Both the position numbers and the translations under genes were made by a program. 64,000 nucleotides of DNA, taken from positions 3,224,001 to 3,288,000 of the forward strand of contig NZ_CP121196.1 of the NCBI RefSeq assembly GCF_039994875.1, in the 5' to 3' direction. Source of the DNA: Telmatobacter sp. DSM 110680 (GTDB lineage Bacteria > Acidobacteriota > Terriglobia > Terriglobales > Acidobacteriaceae). Numbering within the stretch: position 1 is the stretch's first letter; each line of letters opens with the position of its first letter. Below the pieces are notes generated by a model. It did no database searches. It was given only the letters and a program-made list of their open reading frames with translations, and was not told where the DNA came from. This document shows positions 35,730-56,270 of the stretch, one piece after another.

Positions 35730-36243
35730 TGCCGGACAGTCGTCGCCCAGGATGGCGGGAGTTGCCACCCTGGGTAACCTGTCTCATCTTCTCCGATTGC
35801 CAGGATGTAACTCTAACTTGCGATGAGTGAGCGCCATGGCAAACATCCGCGATGTGGTGTCGATAAACCATTGAAATTAAAAACCTGACGGGTAATCGGC
35901 ACTGCTGGGTGTTACCAAAGTGTGATTGACTCCACGGAAGGTCTATCCTACAGTTACTACTCCAATTCGACATGGGAACGTTTAAGCAAAGGGCCCATTT
36001 TTCAAGTCAGCATTGTCGTGTCCGTTGAGAAGGAAATTCCAATCAACGGTACCGTCTTTAATCCCTTTGAGGTTTCGGGCGCGTTTCGGCCTCCTCATCT
36101 TCAGATTTGCCTTCCAGGCTGACGTCATCTGAGGTTCTTGCTGGGGACATTTTGCAAAAGCGTTTGCTCGCGTCACCAGCCTGATTCAATAGGTGAGTGA
36201 CGGAAAACTGTTTGCTTTTGAAGGATTTTCGCTCAGGTGCCTT
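35730..36243. other. Intergenic region upstream of the EPS-locus regulator
   Basis: About 510 bp without a convincing gene. A weak sigma70-type promoter, TTGACT (35926-35931) and TACAGT (35949-35954) with 17-bp spacing, points towards the regulator gene. No sigma54-type element with correct spacing was found here. Confidence 0.4.
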
Positions 36244-37710
36244 GTGAAACCAACGTTGCTGATTCTGTCCGTTCTGCGATCTGCTGACACTCGTACGATC
36301 CTGGATGGTTTTCTCAAGACATCGGGTCATAGAGCGGTTCACGCATCCAGCTGCGAGCAAGCTTCGATCCTCCTTGCCAATGCCCTTGACCCCGATTTGG
36401 TGATTATCGAGTCGTCACTTGAGATGGATTCTGGTGTTCTTTATAGAACATTGCAGGCCGCTTCGGGATCGGCGGTTTGTCTCGTTTATGGCGCAGGCGA
36501 GCAGCATTACAAAAACCAAGCGGCCAAGGCGGGGATCGAGTTTTTTATTCAGCGGCCGTTTTCTCGCTGCGATCTCGGCAAGATGTTTGAACAACTCTGC
36601 ATCGCAAACTCTGACGATATGGAATGCGGTCATGAGGGGGCACCTGCGTTAGAGCCAATTCGCAGCAGCGCAACTCATGCGGATCATGTCCTGGAAGAAC
36701 TTGGAGAGGGCCGTTACTTTTTTGCAGGCGCGCCCTCCATGCTTAAGATCTATCGACAGATACAGCTTCTCGCCGAAGTCGACGCTCCGGTCTTGATTCT
36801 CGGTGAAAGCGGCACCGGTAAGGAAGTGATTGCGCACCTCATCCACAAACATTCGCGCCGTTCGCAGCATAGTTTTGTCAACGTGAACTGTGCGGCATTG
36901 CCGTCGGATCTTCTTGAGAGCGAGCTTTTCGGGTATCAGCAGGGCGCATTCACAGGCGCAATCAAGGACAAGCCGGGCAAGTTTGAGCAGGCAAATCGCG
37001 GTACATTGCTGCTGGATGAGATTGGCGAAATGAGTGCGCCGATGCAAGCTAAATTGCTGCATGTCCTTCAGGATGGGCAGTTTACCCGTCTGGGGGCGCG
37101 CGAAAGCAGTAAGGTTGACGTGCGTGTGCTGGCGGCCACCAATATTCAGATCGAGAGCGCGTTGGTGGGTAAGTCGTTTCGCGAAGACCTTTTCTACCGA
37201 TTGAACGTTTTCACGATCTCGGTACCACCGCTGCGCGAGCGCCGCGAGGAAATTCCATTCCTCATCGAGGAGACGATTCGCAGATCGCCTGAGTCGCTCA
37301 GGAACGGGAGTGAGTTTGTTTTTTCATCCCGCCTACTCGACGCAGCCCTGCTTTGCGATTGGCGCGGGAATGTGCGTGAACTTAGGAATTTTGTCACCAG
37401 GACCATGACAATGCGCGATTCCGATGCGGCGATTCGTGAATTGGAGGCGAAGGTCGTCGCAACGACACAGGTTGTGTCGGCGATGTCTTCTCCAGAGCAG
37501 CACTCTGAACACACTGGTATGCGCTCTGTGGTGCGCGATATGAAAGATCGAGCTGAGGCTCAGATGATTCAGGAGGCACTTGAAGTTTCAGGCTGGAATC
37601 GGCGGCATGCAGCCAAGTACCTCAACATCAGTTATCGCGGTCTGCTTTACAAGATTCAGCAGCTACAGCTTTCACCTCGGTCGTCCTCTCGACCGCACGC
37701 AAGGGTCTGA
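36244..37710 (+). CDS. Sigma54-dependent NtrC-family regulator with a degenerate receiver domain
   Basis: A 488-residue activator. Residues 1-115 have the receiver fold but lack the expected residues: the phosphorylated Asp is Glu56 in LVIIESSLE, the acidic pair after the first strand is absent (LILSVLRS) and the conserved Lys is Arg in IQRPF. The AAA+ domain is intact with Walker A GESGTGKE (187-194), the sigma54-contact loop GAFTGA (234-239) and Walker B TLLLDE (254-259). A Fis-type helix-turn-helix (HAAKYLNISYRGLLYKI) ends the protein. GTG at 36244 gives a normal receiver start; GTG at 36193 is an alternative. It opens the EPS locus and probably activates its sigma54 promoters without phosphorylation. 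Confidence 0.87.
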   Translation: MKPTLLILSVLRSADTRTILDGFLKTSGHRAVHASSCEQASILLANALDPDLVIIESSLEMDSGVLYRTLQAASGSAVCLVYGAGEQHYKNQAAKAGIEFFIQRPFSRCDLGKMFEQLCIANSDDMECGHEGAPALEPIRSSATHADHVLEELGEGRYFFAGAPSMLKIYRQIQLLAEVDAPVLILGESGTGKEVIAHLIHKHSRRSQHSFVNVNCAALPSDLLESELFGYQQGAFTGAIKDKPGKFEQANRGTLLLDEIGEMSAPMQAKLLHVLQDGQFTRLGARESSKVDVRVLAATNIQIESALVGKSFREDLFYRLNVFTISVPPLRERREEIPFLIEETIRRSPESLRNGSEFVFSSRLLDAALLCDWRGNVRELRNFVTRTMTMRDSDAAIRELEAKVVATTQVVSAMSSPEQHSEHTGMRSVVRDMKDRAEAQMIQEALEVSGWNRRHAAKYLNISYRGLLYKIQQLQLSPRSSSRPHARV

Positions 37711-37771
37711 GCAAACTCTTCTTCTTGCTCGTGCCTGGATCCTCAGCCGTATCCGCGAGAAATGGCAGCCA

Positions 37772-37813
37772 TTTGCATACTCTGGGGTAATAGTATGCAA
37801 AAGTTTGCATACT
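37772..37813. promoter_or_regulatory. Three-part inverted repeat, likely activator-binding site
   Basis: TTTGCATACT occurs at 37772-37781 and 37804-37813, and its exact reverse complement AGTATGCAAA at 37792-37801. Each neighbouring pair makes a perfect 10-bp inverted repeat, with spacers of 10 and 2 bp. The block lies about 100-140 bp upstream of a sigma54 promoter candidate, the normal distance for an NtrC-type enhancer site. Confidence 0.65.
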
Positions 37814-37908
37814 TCAGACAGCGGGAGTTCAAGCCTCTTCCAATCCCGATCAATTTCATGGAAAAAGAGCTAAAAACAAGTGATATGTTCACGGATTGTT
37901 CCGCACTA

Positions 37909-37926
37909 TTGGTCATGCATTTGCTA
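37909..37926 (+). promoter_or_regulatory. Candidate sigma54 promoter
   Basis: TTGGTCATGCATTTGCTA has GG at 37911-37912 and GC at 37923-37924, ten bases apart as sigma54 requires, with TTGCT at -12. Transcription would start near 37936, about 13 nt before the ATG of the next gene. Confidence 0.6.
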
Positions 37927-37948
37927 ATGGGTTAGTACACGAGCCCAT

Positions 37949-38821
37949 ATGCCTGCACAGACTTATAACGAGACTCGACTTCCTGAACTACCGCAGCCGG
38001 AGTTCATCTTCGGGGCCACGTCAGGGATGCGGGAAATACGCGCGAAAATCGAGCGAGCGGCACACGACAATTTACCTGTACTGATTCAGGGAGAGAGCGG
38101 AACGGGTAAGGAAATACTCTGCCGCTTTCTACATGAGAACCAGGGGTGTGGAGACAAGCCCTTTCTAAAGCTCAACTGCGGAGCGACTTTGGCGAGCTTG
38201 GCGGAAGGCGAGATCTTTGGGATTGAGAAGACAAAGGCCATGAAAGGGCAGGAAAACAAGGGCGGCCTGATCAACTTTGCTTCGGGCGGTACGCTCTTTC
38301 TGGACGAAATTGATTGTATGGACGTCTCACTACAGCGGAAAGTGGCCCACACGCTCGAGTCAGGTCGATATCGACAGATCGACGGCAGGGAGGACCTGGC
38401 GGTAGACGCCCGATTCGTATGCGCCACGAGTATCGATATGGAGGTGGAATTGAGGAATCGCGTTGTCGATGAGTTGTTGGGATGTTTCGTTCATCGCGTA
38501 CGACTGCTCCCACTTCGCGATCGCAGGGAAGACATACCGCAACTTTGCGAATATCTGCTCGCAAAGTTTGCCAGTGAGTTTGGCCGTCCAGTCCCACATC
38601 TCAGTTCGCGCGCCGTGGAAGCGTTTCAGCAGTGGAAGTGGCCGGGAAACATTCGCGAATTGGAGAATTGGGTTGCACGAATAGTGATTTTTGGTGCCGA
38701 GGAAGTTGTGGGCCTTGAATTCAGGCGTCAACTAGCCTCCGGAGAAAACACTGTGGCGAAGTACCATCACGTCTCTCGTCCAAGATCTGCGGGTATGAGG
38801 CGTCCGCGAAGTCACAGGTGA
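37949..38821 (+). CDS. Stand-alone sigma54-activator-like AAA+ protein without GAFTGA loop or DNA-binding domain
   Basis: A 290-residue protein that consists of little more than the NtrC-type AAA+ domain. Walker A GESGTGKE (48-55), Walker B GGTLFLDE (113-120), LLPLRDRREDI and WPGNIRELEN (231-240) are preserved. The GAFTGA loop that grips sigma54 is replaced by KTKAMKG (94-100), there is no N-terminal sensor domain, and the tail after residue 262 is short and basic (RPRSAGMRRPRSHR) with no helix-turn-helix. It probably cannot open sigma54 promoters by itself; it may form mixed rings with, or restrain, the preceding regulator. It has its own candidate sigma54 promoter. The 13-nt expected leader has only a weak GAG element. 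Confidence 0.82.
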   Translation: MPAQTYNETRLPELPQPEFIFGATSGMREIRAKIERAAHDNLPVLIQGESGTGKEILCRFLHENQGCGDKPFLKLNCGATLASLAEGEIFGIEKTKAMKGQENKGGLINFASGGTLFLDEIDCMDVSLQRKVAHTLESGRYRQIDGREDLAVDARFVCATSIDMEVELRNRVVDELLGCFVHRVRLLPLRDRREDIPQLCEYLLAKFASEFGRPVPHLSSRAVEAFQQWKWPGNIRELENWVARIVIFGAEEVVGLEFRRQLASGENTVAKYHHVSRPRSAGMRRPRSHR

Positions 38822-39214
38822 GGGAAGGAACGGGCAGACTGGGGTAAGCAGGTCGTTGACCCGAAAGTAACCTTTGATTGTTTCTTGGCATTCGAATTGA
38901 AATAGGATGTATTTGTCGGAAAATGACTTTGTAATGAGAAATTTAGGTTTCAAAGCCGCAAGGATCGTGGCTGTTACTGTGGCGGCGACAGAAAGGTTAC
39001 CGCAGAGGTACTTCCGCAACCCTAATAGGTCATTGTGGAACCGTTGCCGGTAATCGACTATTGGACTGGGTTTCTTCGCGGCTCCAGGTACGGTTCCTTG
39101 TTGATGAGTTGTGAGGAGATCGGGCGTCCGACGGGGTTTTTGAAAGTGTTCCATGTAACTCACAGGGCGAAGCTATGCCCGAATCGTTACTAGCAACAGA
39201 AGGGTGATGCGAAC
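38822..39214. other. Intergenic region before the EPS operon
   Basis: About 390 bp. TTGGCATTCGAATTGA (38885-38900) resembles a sigma54 element but has GA where -12 GC is expected. A 39-codon plus-strand frame at 38934-39053 lacks a ribosome-binding site and is not called. No terminator is evident. The promoter for the nusG-like gene probably lies here. Confidence 0.35.
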
Positions 39215-39823
39215 GTGGCTACGCTGCAAAGTATTGAAACACGGGCTCAAAAGAGCGTTCCATGGTGCGCTGTCTACACTCGCCATCAGCACGAGAAGTC
39301 GATTAGCGAGATGTTGGAAACGAAGGGATTCGAGGTATTCCTGCCGCTGTATGAATCTACGCGTCGATGGAAAGACAGGCAGAAGATCCTGTCCCTGCCG
39401 CTGTTTCCTTGCTATGTTTTTGTACGAGGAGCTCACGAGCGACGTCTCCCGGTTTTGACCACTCCGGGAGTGCACATGATTATCAGCCGCGGGGAGCGTG
39501 TGGCCACCGTACCCGACGAAGAGATTGAAGCAATTCGCAGGACGGTCGAAGGTCCGTTTTCCGTTGAGCCTCATCCGTTCCTTCACTGCGGCGAGCGTGT
39601 TCGAGTAATTCGCGGCTCTCTGGAAGGTGTGGAAGGAATTCTGACGCGGAAGAAGAACCTATACAGACTGGTTCTGTCGGTAGAGATGCTGTCTCAGTCA
39701 GTGGCTGTTGAGATCGACGCTTTAGACGTTGTGCCGGTGGTTAAGAGCGCAATGGTCGTACCGAATCGGGATGGAAACCGTGATTCAAACGCCCTGCGGA
39801 GAGGTGTATTCACCGGAAACTGA
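39215..39823 (+). CDS. Specialised NusG paralogue (RfaH/UpxY/LoaP-like antiterminator)
   Basis: A 202-residue NusG-family protein. The NGN domain is clear (PWCAVYTRHQHEKSISEML, then FEVFLPLYESTRRWKDRQK, LPLFPCYVFVRG and TTPGVHMIIS), followed by the KOW domain (about 123-175, CGERVRVIRGSLEGVEGIL). It begins an EPS operon of more than a dozen genes, the usual setting of paralogues that load onto RNA polymerase and prevent early termination in long polysaccharide operons. GTG at 39215 is preceded by AAGGGTG at a somewhat long distance. A candidate recruitment element was not identified with certainty. Confidence 0.88.
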   Translation: MATLQSIETRAQKSVPWCAVYTRHQHEKSISEMLETKGFEVFLPLYESTRRWKDRQKILSLPLFPCYVFVRGAHERRLPVLTTPGVHMIISRGERVATVPDEEIEAIRRTVEGPFSVEPHPFLHCGERVRVIRGSLEGVEGILTRKKNLYRLVLSVEMLSQSVAVEIDALDVVPVVKSAMVVPNRDGNRDSNALRRGVFTGN

Positions 39824-55899: not shown

Positions 55900-56270
55900 C
55901 GGGACATTTGTTACCCGGCTGAGACATGCGGCCATACAGACAGACCAACTGCGTGTATTTTCGTCTAGTAGTGCGTAAAAATTACAACTTGGAGGGAGGC
56001 AATGGCTCGCTAACATGATGAGATAGAGGGGGTTAGTGTTTGGAACTCCAAGTGCCACTCATACAAGAAAATGTCAACGGATAGATCGTCGATGACCTTC
56101 TAGTTCCACTCGCAAACTCAGGGCCAGGCGGTTGCAGCAGCCAAAACCTTAGTTTGGGAAGAGATGGTTACTTTGGTCGCGTATGGCGGTTACCAAATGG
56201 GCACTTTTCTGCTAGAGTGGGCTTTCCATTAGTCTAGCGGCTCAAGAATTCTGAAACGGAGTAGTTCAAG
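55900..56270. other. Intergenic region between GT4 and beta-helix genes
   Basis: About 370 bp with no convincing frame on either strand. A sigma54 promoter candidate (56198-56213) lies near the right end. No terminator hairpin with a T-run was found after the GT4 gene. Confidence 0.4.
56198..56213 (+). promoter_or_regulatory. Candidate sigma54 promoter
   Basis: TGGGCACTTTTCTGCT has GG at 56199-56200 and GC at 56211-56212, separated by ten bases, with GCAC after the GG. Start would be near 56224, giving a 47-nt leader containing the ACGGAG ribosome-binding site. Confidence 0.6.

Follow-up and report, generated by a model that had tools for sequence, protein, structure and literature searches.

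What can a protein of the sigma54-activator family do once it has lost both the loop that contacts sigma54 and the domain that binds DNA? The question is raised by T, a degenerate sigma54-activator AAA+ protein of 290 aa encoded at 37949..38821 on the forward strand of the window, i.e. the whole stretch of 64,000 nucleotides from Telmatobacter sp. DSM 110680 analysed here. T follows the gene of an activator, R (36193..37710, forward strand), and the next gene after it encodes a NusG/UpxY-family antiterminator (39215..39823, forward strand; 125.9 bits with NF033644, cut-off 100). An EPS set also lies downstream of T; the UpxY, XrtA chain-length and general EPS tyrosine-autokinase models scored above their cut-offs, and the remaining XrtA-type models gave matches under theirs. 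The comparisons below point, tentatively and with a confidence somewhat short of even, to T being an operon-encoded, non-activating accessory of R that may enter the ring formed by R and damp it.

Domains and motifs of T and R

The Pfam scan of T found Sigma54_activat (128.5 bits) and AAA_lid_14 (73.2 bits), no further recognisable domain and no match to HTH_8, and the best HTH match anywhere between the start of T and nusG in the window had an E value of 0.95. Alignment with relatives showed that Walker A (GESGTGKE, 38090..38113, forward strand) and Walker B (GTLFLDEI) are intact. The L1 loop of T reads EIFGIEKTKAMKGQ where intact relatives have ELFGYxxGAFTGA; within its stretch KTKAMKGQ, residues 95-100 (TKAMKG, codons 38231..38248, forward strand) occupy the place of GAFTGA when T is aligned with GAFTGA-bearing relatives and with R. 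The initial annotation, made from the letters of the DNA, had described a minimal sigma54-AAA+ protein with ATPase motifs retained, GAFTGA replaced by KTKAMKG and the DNA-binding domain absent, and the open frame, the domain scan and the alignment bear out each of these points. Its further statement that the sensor parts were lost was mostly wrong, since sensor II (WPGNIRELEN) is unaltered and the only change in sensor I is from ATN to ATS. Neither position aligned with the arginine fingers (FREDLFYR in relatives) holds an Arg in T, with a two-residue alignment gap there that makes the register uncertain. The fingers are unrecognisable in T, a loss that had been overlooked. Since sigma54 contact, DNA binding and fingers are all missing from it, the T of the window has no means of activation by the known route.

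The C-terminal tail of T is basic. An AlphaFold2 model built from a ten-sequence alignment had a mean pLDDT of 77.6, with residues 1-9 and 268-290 below 50, and the best 50 Foldseek matches of this model were sigma54-activator-type domains, among them NtrC1, DmpR, FleQ and PspF, at query-normalised TM scores of 0.65-0.73. T and R are 33% identical, and R is only ninth among the other matches of T in the genome, eight places scoring better.

R has a worn receiver, an AAA+ domain with GAFTGA, and HTH_8 (a later in-frame start, GTG, lies at 36244). GAFTGA, both fingers and the HTH are all kept in the R of the window, and every listed motif was kept in 26/26 aligned R sequences. That a complete activator precedes T is therefore correct, except that its receiver, which has Glu at the phospho-acceptor place, scored 24.1 bits against a Pfam cut-off of 30.2. 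The phospho-acceptor Asp was lost in 12 of the 17 T-linked R with an aligned receiver (Glu in 9), and the Lys before the conserved Pro in 15/17 (for the R of the window, the stretch concerned is 36193-36650). Some R without T had also lost these residues, and four distant solo R retained the Asp. Judging from these residues, R is probably not under phosphorylation control. G198 has a strongly eroded T, and the R that precedes it (L153, 12419-14086, minus strand) is broken into two frames (338 and 193 aa), possibly through decay of the whole R-T pair or an assembly error.

Orthologues of T in EPS loci

As a sigma54 activator matching T at E 1e-30 was present in 99/99 related genomes, orthologues were recognised from their score, their place and the tree. 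Strong T matches and EPS loci located via the chain-length gene supplied the regions, and those of 20 R matches among 398 family genomes (of which 118 match at E 1e-105) were fetched as well. Scanning genome contigs with the T of the window alone as query recovered no relative, and the NusG alignment as query succeeded; named contigs were thus reached via nusG and 80 loci were kept, of which 51 (L052-L102) were annotated and L103-L131 were not counted.

In total 18 full T orthologues were found, all in EPS loci of Acidobacteriaceae-type genomes (14 plus G256, G198, G429 and G164); the T of G029, cut by a contig end, was excluded from the counts. The nine named contigs with T are assigned to Acidobacteriaceae, Acidobacteriales or Acidobacteria. 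R was located 0.2-2.5 kb upstream of T in 17/18 loci, the contig of the remaining one (G058) ending 1.2 kb upstream of T, so that the gene pair, whose recurrence in other genomes had been proposed as a check, is indeed found elsewhere. A NusG/UpxY gene followed directly in 16/18 loci, the exceptions being G048 (contig end) and G164 (other genes). T without R was not seen among the loci where absence of R could be shown, R without T nearby was common, and so was nusG without T.

Five further stretches of the same genus (L137, L138, L141, L142 and L143) carry an intact T-like activator with GAFTGA and HTH, divergent from an R-like activator, and two (L139 and L140) have a T-like gene with no R beside it; the pairing of activators may be more widespread here.

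Repeated loss of motifs in a maintained gene

The P-loop was present in all 18 T, sensor II Arg and the first arginine finger in 14 each, the Walker B DE in 12, the HTH in 12, the second finger in 9 and a GAFTGA-like loop in 2, i.e. 16 T had lost GAFTGA. HTH_8 was detected by Pfam in 0/6 HTH-less T and in 5/5 HTH-bearing T scanned, and in the six loci whose T has no HTH, a search of the sequence running from T as far as nusG found no convincing HTH remnant (best E 0.017, in G008, on the opposite strand).

A tree of T was built without the loop and HTH columns. In this tree the T of G164 (GSFTGA, HTH) is sister (97/91) to the remaining 17 T (100/98), and the T of G429 (GSYTGA, HTH) groups with G012 (GSFAGA) and G037 (GARDGA) with support 100/99. 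A single clade was rejected both for the 16 loop-lost T (AU test, p = 0.0007) and for the six HTH-less T (p = 0.0025), both groups having been defined after the tree was viewed. The fewest changes on the tree are two for the loop and four for the HTH. For the loop the rejection implies either more than one loss or one loss and one regain; for the HTH, these tree comparisons show loss more than once in T lineages.

In close pairs the dN/dS of T is like that of R. Over the same seven orthologue pairs it ranged from 0.109 to 0.168 in T and from 0.093 to 0.169 in R; several of these pairs share taxa, all their members keep the HTH, the dS of T is up to 2.0, and two pairs with the protein of the window were saturated. 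For the three closest pairs sharing no genome, dN/dS of T was 0.118-0.146. On each of seven T branches 5.3-15.8 nonsense changes would be expected without constraint and none was observed. Likewise, a six-frame search that reads through stops found no stop inside 14 T matches, and no T fragments of at least 90 aa were seen in the annotated T-less loci. Low dN/dS and the absence of nonsense changes indicate that T is maintained, and by these codon comparisons the frame of T is shown to be under selection. A decaying pseudogene, one of the outcomes named beforehand as overturning the tuning role, is rejected by the intact frames and by dN/dS values far from 1, the latter measured in HTH-bearing pairs.

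A conserved palindrome and candidate promoter before T

A palindrome, TATGCAAAAGTTTGCATA (37794..37811, not assigned to a strand), lies before T and is a candidate enhancer. Sites resembling TRTGCAAAnnTTTGCAYA were present before T in 18/18 loci, with 14-18 of 18 positions agreeing, two of these being free. Compared with shuffled sequences, at most 4/100 were as good in 16 loci, 12/100 in G164 and 9/100 in G198. The palindrome of the window is the sole perfect copy in the genome, where one further site lies within two mismatches, and no second palindrome within three mismatches was found in the 64-kb window.

A candidate sigma54 -24/-12 promoter, TTGGTCATGCATTTGCT (37909..37925, forward strand), follows. 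A GG-N10-GC site was found 98-143 bases after the palindrome start and near the T start in 18/18 loci; the regular expression was written after the sites had been viewed, and the chance expectation of 0.03-0.09 per region is therefore flattering, and the start of the searched stretch was picked by hand for G012, G429, G058, G164 and G198. The site of the window is weak when taken singly, 13/100 shuffles being equal to it (p = 0.13). With a weight matrix based on the GG-N10-GC consensus, shuffle p values of at most 0.05 were obtained in 7/18 regions before T, 1/17 before R and 2/16 before nusG, and the best matrix site was the conserved site in 13/18 of the regions before T. Given that single sites are weak, the evidence lies in the fixed place of palindrome and promoter and not in the score of any one site. 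The initial proposal that T has its own sigma54 promoter at 37909 is thus strengthened by position and left weak by the individual score; the second promoter proposed, at 56198, has the GG-N10-GC spacing. Several contigs have a first possible start codon that overlaps with the site, and the T annotated in these contigs is probably too long.

In T-less EPS loci the palindrome was found before nusG in 5/14 (L055, L059, L070, L071 and L072). An R homologue (E 1e-85 or better) was present in 5/5 of the palindrome-bearing T-less genomes compared with 1/9 of those without palindrome (Fisher's Exact Test, p = 0.003); this search followed the scoring of the palindromes, and homologues at E 1e-85 may include paralogues. 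Among these homologues a match across almost the full length (52%) was confined to the one of G467. The single R-bearing genome without palindrome is that of L052, and L067 has a promoter-like site with neither palindrome nor R. Palindrome and R were both absent from L063, L134 and L075, which were added later and are outside the Fisher test. A clear promoter was found in only two of the five palindrome-bearing loci, L055 and L070, and in L072 the two elements are 384 bases apart. As the palindrome tracks the R homologue where T is missing, R is probably its owner. By the same comparison of loci, the promoter before T probably serves the nusG-EPS operon, with T as an optional first gene, and T has the appearance of an accessory to R that is expressed from the promoter of R.

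Shifted constraint and co-variation with R

In a T that continues to bind ATP and partners without touching sigma54, one would expect the lid and the P-loop to be kept and the loop to be unconserved. The lid was more identical than the core in 13/15 pairs of HTH-less T and 35/45 pairs of HTH-bearing, loop-lost T, compared with just 7/171 pairs of intact relatives and 0/21 pairs of R; the pairs are related, so that these counts are descriptive and not a test, and O_G085 was omitted because its loop region aligns badly. No new conserved motif was seen in the loop of T, where mean identity was 13-33% across three T groups. The last 18 residues hold 4-8 Lys/Arg in 17 T of the clade and 0-5 in 20 outgroup relatives, and the basic tail persists in HTH-less T.

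At the protein level T changes faster than R (mean distance 0.76 versus 0.54). In 14 genomes the distances of T and R co-vary (partial r = 0.70, p = 0.0005) beyond what is shared with three other genes (nusG, export and OMP), and for the AAA+ and HTH part of R alone the value was 0.39 (p = 0.012). Co-variation with T was seen for the OMP gene as well (0.42, p = 0.013), and this together with the weaker correlation for the AAA+/HTH part of R suggests that adjacency or linkage may explain part of the T-R link.

Proposed mechanism and alternatives

How could a protein of this kind act? In the mechanism that we propose, R would bind the palindromic enhancer and, together with sigma54 polymerase, fire the -24/-12 promoter driving T and, probably on a shared transcript, nusG and the EPS genes. 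T, with ATP binding and lid kept, would then enter as a blank subunit, either into the ring of R or into the dimer that precedes the ring, and a ring holding subunits without L1 contacts would activate poorly. As T accumulates the operon would be damped, presumably giving a negative feedback that caps EPS expression. Linked PspF dimers in which wild type alternates with the GAFTGA mutant T86A were insufficient for activation, and alternating hydrolysis mutants were tolerated (PMC4132715). By the result with the GAFTGA mutant, T mixed into a ring of R should inhibit, and given that T would be made from R's promoter, such inhibition amounts to feedback. Inactive subunits of clamp loaders are comparable to the proposed blank subunit. 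Against this reading, R is not the nearest relative of T in the genome, T seems dispensable given that some R-bearing loci lack it, and the single promoter sites are weak. A broader evolutionary form seems to us possible but doubtful: in one bacterial group a second activator would repeatedly have lost its sigma54 contact, its DNA-binding part and some catalytic residues, ending as a self-regulated blank AAA+ subunit that binds ATP, holds to the ring through its lid, is made from the promoter activated by its partner, and poisons or paces the ring of that partner.

An alternative that we consider unlikely is that T acts without R, as an ATP-bound, basic-tailed protein that would meet some other target (the NusG-like antiterminator, a nucleic acid or a second messenger, for example) and so control EPS expression at a different step. 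Its position just before nusG in 16/18 loci and the retention of the basic tail even in HTH-less T would fit, and TyrR, HupR, DhaR, VpsR and YplP are listed as having an AAA+ domain that is still recognisable with the sigma54 motif gone, VpsR, DhaR and YplP, which lack GAFTGA, being judged non-sigma54 activators (PMC3162934). However, proteins of the VpsR and TyrR kind bind DNA whereas 6/18 T have no HTH, and T was never seen lacking R where this could be checked, whereas nusG lacking T is common. GAFTGA-less relatives of this kind (TyrR, HupR, DhaR, VpsR and YplP) act as DNA-binding regulators, and the T of the window has no such domain.

It is rather improbable that T is instead a positive partner of the FleT type, which would join R and widen or shift the range of usable promoters rather than damp it. 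The gene logic is the same: in Rhodobacter (Cereibacter) sphaeroides, FleT is a second activator without DNA-binding domain, encoded in a sigma54 operon driven by FleQ, inactive as an activator alone and forming hetero-oligomers with FleQ (PMC7277832, PMC11999139). As far as sequence can tell, T resembles it in having no DNA-binding domain and in lying behind an enhancer and a candidate sigma54 promoter near a full activator. The system differs in being flagellar and not EPS, and the FleQ-FleT hetero-oligomer is known whereas contact between R and T is proposed here from comparison. FleT, compared here by its description, is listed as a type Ic sigma54 activator (PMC3162934), whereas the sigma54 contact motif is missing from the T of the window and from 16/18 T altogether. 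T lacks the sigma54 contact, and alternating GAFTGA-mutant subunits were insufficient in the PspF experiment; with the palindrome of the window and one site within two mismatches in the genome a second class of promoters is not evident.

Competition for the enhancer, with HTH-bearing T occupying the palindrome of R and blocking R, is very improbable as a general explanation; a Fis-type HTH is found in 12/18 T and several resemble that of R (SYRALLYK in both), but the idea is inapplicable to the T of the window and several lineages dropped the HTH yet kept T. Least probable of all, slow decay of a redundant activator kept temporarily agrees with the progressive disappearance of the loop, the fingers and the HTH and with the faster change of T, and is opposed by close-pair dN/dS similar to that of R, by the lack of stops in 14 T matches and of T fragments of at least 90 aa, and by the specific conservation of lid and P-loop.

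Inhibition of R from within a mixed ring, the reading that we prefer, has relatives among known activator pairs. HrpR and HrpS of Pseudomonas syringae are a pair of activators that form a mixed hexamer (PMC7057263); both retain all motifs and are co-dependent, whereas R occurs without T. For VnfA1, VnfA2 and VnfA3 of Azotobacter vinelandii it is reported that the paralogues interact in two-hybrid and pull-down assays and that expression of paralogues partly needs the first activator (PMC9542535), as is proposed for T, but the VnfA proteins carry sensory parts at the N-terminus as well as DNA-binding determinants, and the T of the window has neither. The initial annotation had regarded control by mixed hexamers as undescribed for EPS loci. 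In the literature searched, which largely excluded subscription papers, no description was found of an EPS locus whose partner activator lacks GAFTGA, and a search there joining GAFTGA with words beginning Acidobacteri- found no paper; mixed oligomers of paired activators as such are already described elsewhere (FleQ/FleT, HrpR/HrpS, VnfA1/VnfA3). PrsR/PrsK of the PEP-CTERM/XrtA systems are similar to R in that a sigma54 activator and a conserved sigma54 motif are tied to EPS-associated genes (PMC1569441). Identity with PrsR was rejected, as TIGR02915 gave 270.8 bits for R and 179.1 bits for T against a cut-off of 502.6 and T has no receiver.

If the preferred reading is true, it would be a natural case of subunit-poisoning feedback in sigma54 transcription: poisoning of sigma54 activators by subunits is known from engineered PspF, and nature may use it here. 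The T proteins form a series from nearly intact (GSYTGA and HTH) to stripped (the T of the window) beside an unchanged R, so that the role of each part of the ring could be tested with natural variants. Enhancer, promoter, activator, tuner and antiterminator together would make up a candidate EPS switch in Acidobacteriaceae.

A leader element near nusG

No Rfam match was found in 37700-39400, which includes the leader region between T and nusG. This region contains a leader element, CACAGGGCGAAGCT (39161..39174, forward strand), that was found near nusG across loci, with and without T. An element of the form CACAGGGCGrAGCT, matching at least 11/15 positions of GGGCGAAGCTATGCC, was present near the nusG start in 28/29 loci, at positions ranging from 78 bases before to 134 bases after the first possible start. 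We take it to resemble the ops element of RfaH-type antiterminators. TGT and CACAGGGCG-AGCT were invariant among 18 aligned copies, and the genome contains one exact copy.
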